This document shows, in pieces, positions 3,231 through 30,471 of a DNA stretch of 64,000 bases. The notes beneath the pieces were generated by a model. The model had not been told where the DNA came from, searched no databases, and saw only the letters and a list, made by a program, of their open reading frames with translations. Each line of letters opens with the position of its first letter. The first letter of the stretch is position 1. The translations under genes and the position numbers were made by a program. The DNA comes from Micromonospora sp. HM5-17. Lineage in GTDB: Bacteria > Actinomycetota > Actinomycetes > Mycobacteriales > Micromonosporaceae. The stretch lies in contig NZ_RJWA01000007.1 of NCBI RefSeq assembly GCF_003762835.1, forward strand, positions 1 to 64,000. The letters run 5' to 3'.

Positions 3231-4192
3231 AACTCAAGGTCGTCGCATTCGGTGGCGGACACGGGCTGGCCGCGTCGTTGCGGGCGCTGCGACACTGCGC
3301 GCCCGAGCTGGAGCTGGAGATCACCGCAGTGGTGACGGTCGGTGACGACGGCGGCTCCAGCGGCCGGCTTCGGGCCGAGCGTGGCGCGCTGCCCCCGGGT
3401 GACCTGCGACAGGCGCTCGCCGCGCTGGCCGCGGACGAGGCGGACAGCCGGACCAGCGCCGCCCTGTTCCAGCACCGGTTCGCCACCGGCGGACCGGGGC
3501 GGGACCCGCTCGCCGGGCACACCGTCGGCAATCTGGTCCTCGTCGGGCTGATGGAACTGCTCGGTGACCCGGTGGCCGCGCTCGACCACGCGGGCCGGAT
3601 GGTGGGCGCCGTCGGTCGGGTGCTGCCGATGTCCTGCGAACCGGTGGGGATCGAGGCCCGGGTCCGGGGCGCCGACCCGCGTCGACCCCACGCCGTGCAG
3701 ACCGTACGTGGACAGCACGCGGTCGCGGTGACCGACGGCCGCGTCGAGCTGGTACGGCTCACCCCGGCCGGGCCCCGGGCCTGTCCGGAGGCGTTGGCGG
3801 CGGTTCGTGACGCCGACTGGCTGCTCTTCGGCCCGGGCAGCTGGTACACCAGCGTGATCCCGCACCTGTTGGTTCCGGAGCTGGCCGCCGCGATCGTCGC
3901 CAGCCCCGCCCGCCGGCTGGTCACACTCAACCTGGCCACCGAGGCGGAGACGCTCGGGCTCTCGCTCGCCGACCATCTGGCGGCGCTCACCTGGTATCTG
4001 CCGGAGCTCACCATCGACGTGGTAATCGCGGACGGGAAGGCGGTGGGTGACCCTGAACCTGTGCACCGTGCGGCAGAATCTCTGGGTGCGCGGCTCGTCC
4101 TCGCCCCGGTCGCCGTACCGGACGGTGGCCCTCGGCACGATCCCGCGGCGTTGGGCGCCGCGCTGGTGCCTCTCCTGGGCGCCGATCGTTAA
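3227..4192 (+). CDS. YvcK/CofD-like protein, gluconeogenesis factor family
   Basis: 321 residues of the CofD/YvcK fold: N-terminal [18 protein letters not shown], then [15 protein letters not shown], the [11 protein letters not shown] stretch and the late [15 protein letters not shown] motif that bind the nucleotide/sugar ligand. In Bacillus, YvcK binds UDP-GlcNAc and supports growth on gluconeogenic carbon and cell-wall homeostasis (the mycobacterial CuvA relative acts in cell wall and carbon use). It overlaps rapZ by four bases, so the two are translationally coupled, and it sits 53 bases before whiA. The short GTG start is fixed by this overlap. The chemistry, if any, is unproven in the family. 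Confidence 0.93.
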
Positions 4193-27671: not shown

Positions 27672-28153
27672 TGCAGGTCGACCAGCTCTACCAGGAGATC
27701 ATCCTGGACCACTACAAGCACCCGCACGGGCGGGGACTGCGGGAGCCATACACGGCCGAGGCGCACCACGTCAACCCGACCTGCGGCGACGAGGTGACGA
27801 TCCGGGTCGACCTGGAGGCCGGCGTGCTGAGGGACGTCTCGTACGACGGGATGGGCTGCTCGATCAGCCAGGCGTCGGCAAGCGTCCTGCACGAGCTGCT
27901 CACCGGCCGGGACACCGACGAGATCTCGGTGGTGCACGCCGCCTTCGTCGAGCTGATGTCGGGCCGGGGCCAGGTGACCCCGGACGAGGAACTGCTGGGT
28001 GACGCGGTGGCCTTCGCCGGCGTCGCCCGCTACCCGGCCCGGGTGAAGTGCGCGCTGCTGCCCTGGATGGCGTTCAAGGACGCCGCCGCCCGCGCCGGGG
28101 TGGTGGTCGAGGCCAACAGCGGGACCGAACGGAGCGAGGTGAAGACGGCGTGA
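27671..28153 (+). CDS. sufU: SufU-type Fe-S/sulfur-transfer protein
   Basis: 160 residues, IscU-like fold. The zinc/cluster ligands are in NPTCGDEV (Cys ~41), YDGMGCSISQASASVL (Cys ~66) and PARVKCALLPW (Cys ~128), with the SufU-specific insertion between. In Firmicutes and actinobacteria, SufU accepts sulfur from SufS through a bound zinc. The start is ATG 27671, one base into the sufS stop; an upstream GTG (27668) is equally in frame. Confidence 0.95.
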   Translation: MQVDQLYQEIILDHYKHPHGRGLREPYTAEAHHVNPTCGDEVTIRVDLEAGVLRDVSYDGMGCSISQASASVLHELLTGRDTDEISVVHAAFVELMSGRGQVTPDEELLGDAVAFAGVARYPARVKCALLPWMAFKDAAARAGVVVEANSGTERSEVKTA

Positions 28154-28521
28154 CGGACCAGCAGGAGTCGGCGGCCGCGCCGACCGGGTCGACCAGCAAG
28201 GCGGCGATCGCCGACATCGAGGAGGCGATGAAGGACGTCGTCGACCCGGAGCTGGGGATCAACGTGGTGGACCTGGGGCTGGTCTACGGCATCCACGTCG
28301 ACGACAACAACGTGGCGACCCTGGACATGACGTTGACGTCGGCGGCCTGCCCGCTGACCGACGTCATCGAGGAGCAGGCACGGGCGGCGCTGACCGGCGG
28401 TCCGGGGGGCGGGATCGTCTCCGACTTCCGGATCAACTGGGTGTGGCTGCCGCCGTGGGGCCCGGACAAGATCACCGACGAGGGTCGTGAACAGCTCCGC
28501 GCCCTCGGCTTCAACGTCTGA
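28150..28521 (+). CDS. sufT: SufT / MIP18-family Fe-S assembly factor
   Basis: 123 residues, DUF59 (MIP18) domain: IEEAMKDVVDPELGINVVDLG (shown as EAMKDVVDPELGINVVDLG), VATLDMTLTSAACPLTDV with the conserved Cys, and WVWLPPWGPDKITDEGREQL. Such proteins help mature Fe-S proteins, most clearly under iron limitation. GTG start overlaps the sufU stop (GTGA). It closes the suf operon, 54 bases from the convergent P450 gene. Confidence 0.93.
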   Translation: MTDQQESAAAPTGSTSKAAIADIEEAMKDVVDPELGINVVDLGLVYGIHVDDNNVATLDMTLTSAACPLTDVIEEQARAALTGGPGGGIVSDFRINWVWLPPWGPDKITDEGREQLRALGFNV

Positions 28522-28575: not shown

Positions 28576-29901
28576 TCAGCCGGCGACCGGGGTGATCCGG
28601 GCCCGCAGCCCGTCCGGCACCAGCAGCGCGTACGGGGTCAGCGGTGCCGCGTCAAGGTTGACGACCTCGACCGTGTAGTCGCGGACCAGTGCGGAGACCG
28701 CCAGGACGAGCTGGAGCATGCCCAGGTGGTTGCCGAGGCAGATGCGCGGCCCGGCGCCGAAGGGCAGGTAGGCGTACCGGGCGTGCGGCAACTCCTTCGT
28801 CAGCCAGCGGTCCGGCCAGATCCGCTCCGGATCGGTCCACCACCGCCGGTCCCGGTGAATCAGGTAGACCGGCACCATCACCTGGTCACCCGGGCGCAGG
28901 TGCCAGTCGCCGAGCACGGTGTCGGTACGGACCTCCCGGCCGAGTAGCCAGGTCGGCGGGTACGCCCGGAGCAGTTCCTTGACGAACGCCTCCGTGTAGG
29001 GCAGGTCCGCGACGCTTCGGGCGGTGTCCAGCCCGGCCGCCTCGGCGCGGAGCCGTTCGGCGATCTCGGGGTGCCGGGCGAGTACGGCGATCGCCCAGGT
29101 GAGGGTGGCGCCCGGTACGCCGTGCGAGGCCCGCAGCAGCACGGTGAGCGCATCCACCACCACCGTGTCGCTGATCTCCGTCCCGGTCGGGTCCAGCAGG
29201 GTGTCGAGCAGGTCCTCCGGCGGGTCGGCCGCGCCGCGCCGTCGCCGTGCGCGGGTGTGGTGTAGCAGTATCTCCCGCAGGTCGCGCTCGGTGCGGAGCG
29301 CCCGGCGGACCCGGGGCACCGGCAGCCAACGCGGCAGCGACACCGTGCTGTTCATCAGGACCGCCGTCGCGGCGGCGGCGCGTTCCACGGCCCGGGCCGC
29401 GTCCTCGGCCGCCGGCCCGAGGCAGTAGTCGGTGACCGCCCGCACCGAGAACGCCTTCATCAGGGCCAGCACGTCGACCGGCGTGCCGGCGACCGGACGG
29501 AGCGCCTCGTGGAAGCGGCTCAGCAGCCGCTCGGCGTGGGCGCTCACCGCCGTACGGTTGATGCCCCGCCAGCCCTTGCGGCGGCCCGCCATCGCCACCG
29601 GTGTCACCGCGGCGCCGGCCTCCGGCGGTACGCCCCGGAAGATCGGCACCTCGGCTCCGAAGTCGGTGTTGGTGCGGGCGAACAGTTCGTGGACGAGCTC
29701 GGGGTCGAGCAGGACCATGGTGGTGCGGTTGAAGCTGAAGACGTCGCCGTAGCGCCGCTGGCAGTCGCGGAGGAACCCGATCCGGTCCCGCTCGTAGTCC
29801 CAGGTGTTGCCGAGCAGGAAGCGTCCGGGTGGGCCGGGCGGTCGGCGGTGTTCGCGGGACGCGTCGACGTGGTGTGGCACGGTGGCCTGCTTGTCTGACA
29901 C
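28576..29901 (-). CDS. Cytochrome P450
   Basis: 441 residues, soluble. A Pro-rich start (RRPPGPPGRFLLGN, residues ~19-32) is followed by the P450 fold. ExxR is E309-R312 (KELLRAYPP), and the heme Cys is C388 in FGAGPRICLGNH. The I-helix region (257-268) reads LRASHGVPGATLTWA where most P450s have AGxxTT, so the acid-alcohol pair for oxygen activation is missing. GTG 29901 follows GAGGGGG. It is the only gene downstream of a 25-codon ORF with a strong ribosome binding site, 132 bases away, and nothing else is co-oriented. I infer that it may modify that peptide; a lone catabolic or terpene P450 is the alternative. Confidence 0.93.
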   Translation of the reverse strand: MSDKQATVPHHVDASREHRRPPGPPGRFLLGNTWDYERDRIGFLRDCQRRYGDVFSFNRTTMVLLDPELVHELFARTNTDFGAEVPIFRGVPPEAGAAVTPVAMAGRRKGWRGINRTAVSAHAERLLSRFHEALRPVAGTPVDVLALMKAFSVRAVTDYCLGPAAEDAARAVERAAAATAVLMNSTVSLPRWLPVPRVRRALRTERDLREILLHHTRARRRRGAADPPEDLLDTLLDPTGTEISDTVVVDALTVLLRASHGVPGATLTWAIAVLARHPEIAERLRAEAAGLDTARSVADLPYTEAFVKELLRAYPPTWLLGREVRTDTVLGDWHLRPGDQVMVPVYLIHRDRRWWTDPERIWPDRWLTKELPHARYAYLPFGAGPRICLGNHLGMLQLVLAVSALVRDYTVEVVNLDAAPLTPYALLVPDGLRARITPVAG

Positions 29902-30033
29902 CCGACCCCCTCACGCTCGGTTGACGCCGGTTGGTTCGGCGGGCGTACGGCTGGGCTGGCCGGCTGGTGCGCCGGTGCCGGCGGTGACGGTCGGGTGGCC
30001 CGTCCCGGTCACCGCCGGCGTACGGAGCTCGGG

Positions 30034-30111
30034 TCAGTGGCGCCACGGGTACCGGCCGGCCATGCGGTCGAGCCGGAGGAGCCGGGCGATGCCGATCTTG
30101 ACGAGGGTCAT
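30034..30111 (-). CDS. 25-residue ORF upstream of a P450, candidate RiPP precursor
   Basis: A short ORF reading MTLVKIGIARLL at its start and GRYPWRH at its end. AGGAGG lies eight bases upstream of the ATG, one of the best ribosome binding sites in the window. The first ~19 residues could be an amphipathic, basic leader (Lys/Arg with Leu/Ile). The last seven hold Tyr21, Trp23 and His25 at every second position, which is the geometry that P450 macrocyclases join in biarylitides, cittilins and atropopeptides. The next gene is a P450. There is no homology evidence; an upstream coding leader for the P450 transcript is the main alternative. Confidence 0.55.
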   Translation of the reverse strand: MTLVKIGIARLLRLDRMAGRYPWRH

Positions 30112-30471
30112 TGCCACCACCTCCTGGTCAATCGAACGTGATCCACAGTGTCGTCTGAACAGCCCACATGACCTCAAGGGCTGCTCTGGACATTCGCGTC
30201 GATCGCTACTTCGGACGTTCCGGGAATGCTTACTGGTCGCCGGAATCACCGGCCGGTGGGTGAGATGGTTCTGCCGGGCGTCATCGTCCGTCGCGGCGTC
30301 GGGAGCAGGGGCGGAACGGGCGCGGGTAATTCGATGGCCCGGCCGGTGCGTCTGCGCCAGACTGTCGCTCGTGAATGCCTCGGAGCCGTGGACCCGCCCC
30401 GCCGCCGTCGCCACCCCGGCGCGGCGACAGCGCCGGTTTACCACGTCGGGTCCGGCCGCTGTGCCATTCCG
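30112..30471. other. Divergent intergenic region between peptide ORF and LysE-type gene
   Basis: 360 bases with no gene I can support. The 115 bases next to the peptide ORF are less GC-rich than the rest and must hold its promoter; TTGAGG and TTCAGA are candidate -35 elements but no convincing -10 follows. The part next to the LysE gene is GC-rich and open in frame with it, without a better start. Confidence 0.5.

Follow-up and report, generated by a model that had tools for sequence, protein, structure and literature searches.

Can a 25-codon open reading frame (ORF) and a single cytochrome P450 gene together make up a complete RiPP locus? The question is raised by a reading of the window (by which we mean the whole analysed stretch of 64,000 nucleotides) that was made from the sequence only and proposed a minimal pair of this kind: a very short minus-strand ORF preceded by AGGAGG, then a P450 gene, and nothing else on the transcript. 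All of these elements were found again in the sequence (Table 1). The encoded peptide holds Y21-P22-W23 in its core. The P450 ORF begins with GTG, carries the heme motif FGAGPRICLG and matches the Pfam p450 model at E 5e-56; it is separated from the peptide ORF by a spacer of 132 nt. The neighbours on either side have plus-strand orientation: genes for SUF iron-sulfur assembly (the last of which ends at 28521) are convergent with the P450, and a gene for a LysE-type transporter is divergent from the peptide ORF. Consequently, as the earlier reading had supposed, only the precursor and the P450 fit one transcript, for which co-transcription is predicted; a third gene would be hard to accommodate.

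Table 1. Features of the two-gene locus, with positions in the window and the basis of each assignment.
Feature	Positions	Strand	Description and basis
Shine-Dalgarno AGGAGG	30120..30125	(-)	8 nt before the precursor ATG; from sequence
Precursor gene, MTLVKIGIARLLRLDRMAGRYPWRH	30034..30111	(-)	25 codons and TGA; leader about 1-19, core about 20-25 (putative boundary)
GC-rich RNA hairpin in the precursor/P450 spacer	29977..30019	(-)	Folding energy compared with shuffles
Cytochrome P450 gene (441 aa), presumed maturase that cross-links Tyr and Trp	28576..29901	(-)	ORF, Pfam and clade placement

The P450 and the short ORF turn out to be kept together in other genomes. A P450 search in 300 genomes of the family (cut-off E<=1e-80) yielded the clade P450 in 22 genomes, with a candidate precursor ORF upstream in all 22. 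In the six other genomes of the genus that were examined, neither the precursor nor the clade P450 (E<=1e-80) was found. At E<=1e-70, a class-wide sample gave 2 of 394 genomes (that of the window and G429) and a phylum-wide sample, which overlaps with the former, 1 of 396 (that of the window). A scan of genome contigs, of which the best 80 of 594 relatives were retained, added loci from Dactylosporangium sucinum, Nonomuraea cavernae, Saccharopolyspora shandongensis, Streptomyces, Catellatospora, Lentzea and others; among the viral contigs searched for P450 relatives none was confirmed.

The search was also run from the side of the peptide, with a profile built from 14 precursors. Across 354 family genomes this profile matches 29 at E<=0.01, 24 of them at E<=4e-7. 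The latter group consists of the 14 genomes that supplied the profile (and match by construction), 7 that were known from the P450 search and 3 new ones (G039, G697 and G734). A P450 adjoins the match in all 24, although the three new genomes are no independent evidence for the pairing since they were found through their precursor. For the five genomes with weaker matches, the stretch inspected showed no such ORF, and no heme motif of a P450 either. The same search gave a weak second precursor match in G025.

Combining the searches results in 36 distinct loci: 22 from the family P450 search, 10 from the contig scan (L027-L032, L034-L036 and L044), 1 from the class sample and 3 from the precursor profile. 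Here L026 and L033 are equated, by their contig positions, with L004 and L020, and the two copies in G106 are counted once. A precursor-like ORF is present upstream of the clade P450 at 34 of the 36; no candidate ORF was seen upstream at L034 and L044, both of which are only partial P450 matches. Orthologous P450 loci devoid of the ORF are therefore not what characterizes this clade, and the proposal of a minimal precursor and P450 RiPP locus gains strength, as related P450 loci retain the ORF together with its Tyr and Trp.

Near the end of the upstream ORF the motif [MVS][AGS][GV]xYx[WYH], which was drawn up after the clade precursors had been seen, occurs in 29 of 34 clade rows (three duplicates among them) against 0 of 65 P450 loci outside the clade. 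The control loci were given twice the upstream length used for the clade, and 3 of 68 control rows were dropped for having too little upstream DNA. Three of the five misses (L022, L023 and L025) differ solely by an Ile at the first place of the motif; if this residue is allowed, the count for the clade rows rises to 32 of 34, leaving only L005 and L036, and that for the controls stays at 0 of 65. Given that the ORF recurs in kind and place at related loci, and that its motif is found upstream of none of the control P450s, its presence in the window goes beyond chance.

What is conserved within the peptide is mainly the pair of aromatic residues. Among 34 precursors (32 distinct, 25-40 aa in length) the Tyr at the start of the core is present in 33, and a Trp follows it at +2 or +3 in 32 (9 at +2 and 26 at +3, three having both). 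The terminal His of the window peptide corresponds to +4, where a His is found in 2 of 34. Hence, the expectation that Tyr, Trp and His would be kept rather than drift freely holds for the first two residues and fails for the third. When precursors of relatives were compared in 12 overlapping pairs, 88 codons had changed, 53 of them silently, and none of the changes affects Tyr or Trp; the dN/dS ratio ranges from 0 to about 0.5 in 10 pairs of equal length. Between the precursors of L004 and L128, for instance, eight codons have changed silently and a single one with replacement, from Ile to Pro within Tyr-x-Trp. Judged by these codon changes the precursor is under purifying selection among the relatives, whereas selection on the window's own peptide is not measurable because its nearest P450 relatives are just about 51-59% identical (59% for L004, 57% for L128 and 51% for L106).

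In a P450 tree of 49 rows (34 from the clade and 15 controls) the clade is split from the controls with support of 100/100. One branch (98/90) unites the window with L004 (YIW), L128 (YPW), L106 (YHW) and L027 (YWW), whose precursors all have Tyr and a Trp at +2 only; another (99/97) comprises 26 rows with the precursor Trp at +3. As precursors with the two spacings fall on separate P450 branches, core type and P450 phylogeny go largely together. The earliest branch is that of L005 (NQW), while the branches of L035 and L036 are long and their placement is unsure. A sequence search against the PDB (E<=1e-10) gave 249 distinct sequences with the putative P450 7wzl as the best match (1e-35); among the 60 matches listed of these 249, none is named as a RiPP enzyme. 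Against the model of the aminopyruvatide P450 ApyO (NF050147) the window P450 scores 128.3 bits, which is below the curated cut-off of 525.

Two divergent members deserve a separate remark. At L005 the core Tyr of the precursor is replaced by Asn (GRNQW; MAGRNQWPPEHFYG) with the Trp retained, and the distance from the end of the ORF to the P450 match is about 82 nt; this relative may have a different substrate or form a different bond. At L036 (Lentzea jiangxiensis) the candidate precursor ends in MAGAYTGPYAVQSKCG, is without Trp and is followed by a very strong hairpin; the P450 beside it is 41% identical.

Which known system does the pair resemble most? Cyptides are described as RiPPs with aromatic residues joined by a P450 (PMC12299652, PMC11450843), and two features of such systems are recognizable here: short precursor ORF and P450 stay together in the clade, and the window P450 is intact with its heme cysteine motif. 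The closest likeness is with micitide 982 (mci locus, P450 MciB; also treated in PMC12299652 and PMC12352619), which has a Tyr-Trp ring made by a P450. Its bond is given as Tyr C6-Trp C5' in two reports of synthesis (PMC13250620, PMC13383641), where the ring is assembled from proline, a fragment with the Tyr and an alkyne from which the Trp is formed; we read this ring as Tyr-Pro-Trp. The same three residues are present in the core of the window (GRYPWRH) and in that of its relative L128 (GGRYPWIP). Nonetheless, micitide 982 itself is not the expected product, since a mass of 982 after loss of 2 H was obtained for no C-terminal fragment computed from the window peptide (4-12 residues). With one cross-link, the calculated monoisotopic masses are 968.473 for GRYPWRH, 911.451 for RYPWRH and 1170.550 for MAGRYPWRH. 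He et al. reportedly found micitide in 2023 by mining precursor-P450 pairs. Likewise, the cyptide synthase MpoB is said (in RSC Chem Biol, 2025) to cross-link the YPW motif of a precursor peptide, a target motif equal to that of the window. With its YPW core the window locus would thus be of the same kind as micitide 982 and the MpoB system, a likeness at the level of the core motif.

The likeness to biarylitides that had been suggested, on account of an aromatic-x-His end, proved weak. Biarylitides share the single P450 and the very small gene, but as described in PMC13417212 their precursor has five residues with aromatics at positions 3 and 5, whereas that of the window has 25 residues including a leader, and the residues conserved as a pair are Tyr and Trp. 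On account of this length and of the Tyr-x-His missing in the window, we rejected a biarylitide-type precursor; the distant relative L035 does have Tyr-x-His cores, but with a leader. Atropopeptides (tryptorubin, scabrirubin) have a similar layout: PMC11450843 and PMC12352619 report a short leader-core precursor (28 residues for ScaA) and a single P450, which together with an aromatic core are also found in the window. They are, however, defined by Trp, while the conserved first motif residue of the window clade is Tyr. As to the Trp that they have at core position 2, the Trp of the window lies at Tyr +2, in a core whose boundary is putative. None of the 34 precursors contains a KSLK-like leader motif in any of the six variants published in PMC11450843, and atropopeptide identity was rejected for this reason. 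Judging from sequence comparison, then, we regard the locus as a well-supported cyptide-type pair of an already known kind, with a presumed Tyr-Trp staple. According to PMC13417212 hundreds of predicted cyptide P450s have been taken by others from Nam et al. 2023, and we claim no novelty for the window locus or for the Tyr-x-Tyr-Trp branch as such.

We therefore consider it probable that this is a minimal cyptide-type P450 RiPP locus in which the P450 joins Tyr21 and Trp23 of a 25-residue precursor, and the locus very probably encodes a small stapled-peptide natural product. A short basic and hydrophobic leader (approximately M1 to G19) would be followed by the core R20-H25 with its Tyr-Pro-Trp. 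The P450 would recognise the leader and the [MV][AGS]GR step, draw the tail of the core to the heme and oxidatively connect the side chains of Tyr21 and Trp23 with loss of 2 H, most likely through a C-C bond like that of micitide 982. Trimming and release of the product would then fall to a general protease of the cell and an exporter, both encoded outside the locus.

It could be argued that the RiPP is the same and the bond another one: Trp23-His25, Tyr21-His25, a C-N connection of Tyr and Trp like that in lapparbin, or more than one bond. His25 is indeed located at Trp +2, the precursor of Nonomuraea cavernae (L027, YWWFH) has Tyr, Trp and His in the same spacing, and both Tyr C6-Trp N1' and Trp-His bonds are listed among cyptides in PMC12299652. 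We nevertheless hold this to be rather unlikely, since the His is confined to the two precursors mentioned and the two nearest P450 relatives end in WIP. Still less probable is a modification without any cross-link, in which Tyr or Trp would be hydroxylated, nitrated or desaturated. A precedent exists in RufO, a P450 with a link to RiPP biosynthesis that is reported to nitrate Tyr (PMC12186263), but two closely spaced aromatics that are conserved together, with a spacing that follows the P450 branch (L005 excepted), speak against it.

The surroundings of the pair offer few candidates for further steps of a pathway. The SUF gene at 28150-28518 and the LysE gene are present in all seven genus genomes examined and the precursor in one of them. 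In the six genus-mates (L150-L155) the interval between SUF and LysE contains another ORF (about 1,080-1,160 residues in five and 510 in the sixth) with a similar, secretion-like start; for the one in L151, only the last 120-140 residues match the window genome, at other places. The region is thus stable except for the place occupied by the precursor and P450, which varies. A dedicated role as exporter is disfavoured for the LysE transporter, because its presence does not track that of the precursor. For the three nearest relatives, nine surrounding ORFs were compared with Pfam, giving an AbfB-domain protein, a GntR regulator and an oxidoreductase for L156; a SARP-like regulator, an MFS transporter after the P450 and an NmrA-like protein for L157; and an ABC ATPase, a divergent MFS transporter and a glutamine synthetase for L158. 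The sole recurring neighbour is the MFS transporter adjoining the P450 in L157 and L158 (2 of 3), on different sides. Among these nine ORFs no shared set of tailoring or biosynthetic genes was seen with Pfam, and a dedicated protease or exporter was not recognised.

The spacer between the two genes has a structure of its own. In the window its hairpin has a minimum free energy of -38.4 kcal/mol (z -3.0), with 1 of 200 shuffles as low. Counted strictly (stem of >=11 pairs, loop up to 8), a near-perfect stem occurs in 20 of 34 clade spacers against 0.4% of shuffles and 1 of 65 control upstream regions; the window hairpin, which has internal mismatches, is not among the 20. Local folding reaches z<=-2 in 24 of 34 clade spacers (-3.8 for the window, 10 falling short) against 8 of 65 controls (Mann-Whitney p 8e-10), a comparison weakened by the relatedness of the clade rows and by the use of control regions that do not truly lie between cistrons. 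A consensus scan for promoter and terminator found neither. In ABC importers, internal terminators are reported to set the ratio of operon products (PMC9045158); by analogy the hairpin likely sets the ratio of precursor to enzyme, with much precursor and little P450, so that the strong hairpin after the precursor stop would keep expression of the P450 below that of the precursor. A short ORF and a hairpin before an enzyme gene are the layout of attenuation too, yet an attenuator leader peptide that regulates a P450 acting on some unrelated small molecule is most improbable here: G095, G106 and G120 have a second peptide-gene copy after the P450, where it cannot attenuate that gene, L035 doubles the core, the conserved part is the C-terminal Tyr and Trp, and no other biosynthetic genes are common to the three nearest relatives.

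If the P450 indeed staples Tyr-Pro-Trp in a ribosomal peptide of 25 residues, the pair would be a compact tool for making strained cyclic peptides. The natural core variants at related loci (YPW, YIW, YHW, YWW, YPYW, YEWW and YIH) form a panel for mapping which residues can be joined. Only tentatively do we suggest that the RiPP clade of the window, an actinobacterial one, extends beyond the YPW type, with a multi-cross-link branch, a tandem Tyr-x-His member, two-precursor loci and a shared precursor-hairpin-P450 architecture that is usable for mining. Very short genes are easily missed, as stated in PMC13417212 for the biarylitide gene of 18 bp. In the suggested wider clade, one large branch has Tyr-x-Tyr/Trp-Trp cores (for example GRYPYWFYNY and GRYEWWYYHQA), which would be likely to take more than one cross-link.

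Some individual loci depart from the common arrangement. In L035 (Streptomyces catenulae) the precursor core is doubled (GGRYIHFD twice) and the ORF ends about 137 nt before position 4001. L119, L120 and L122 (genomes G106, G120 and G095) each have a precursor copy before the P450 and a second one directly after it, with the sequence GRYIYWPYHYE or GRYMYWPYHYE in the latter. Finally, L024 (G064) contains one TGA inside the P450 frame with the upstream precursor intact, and is possibly a decaying copy.
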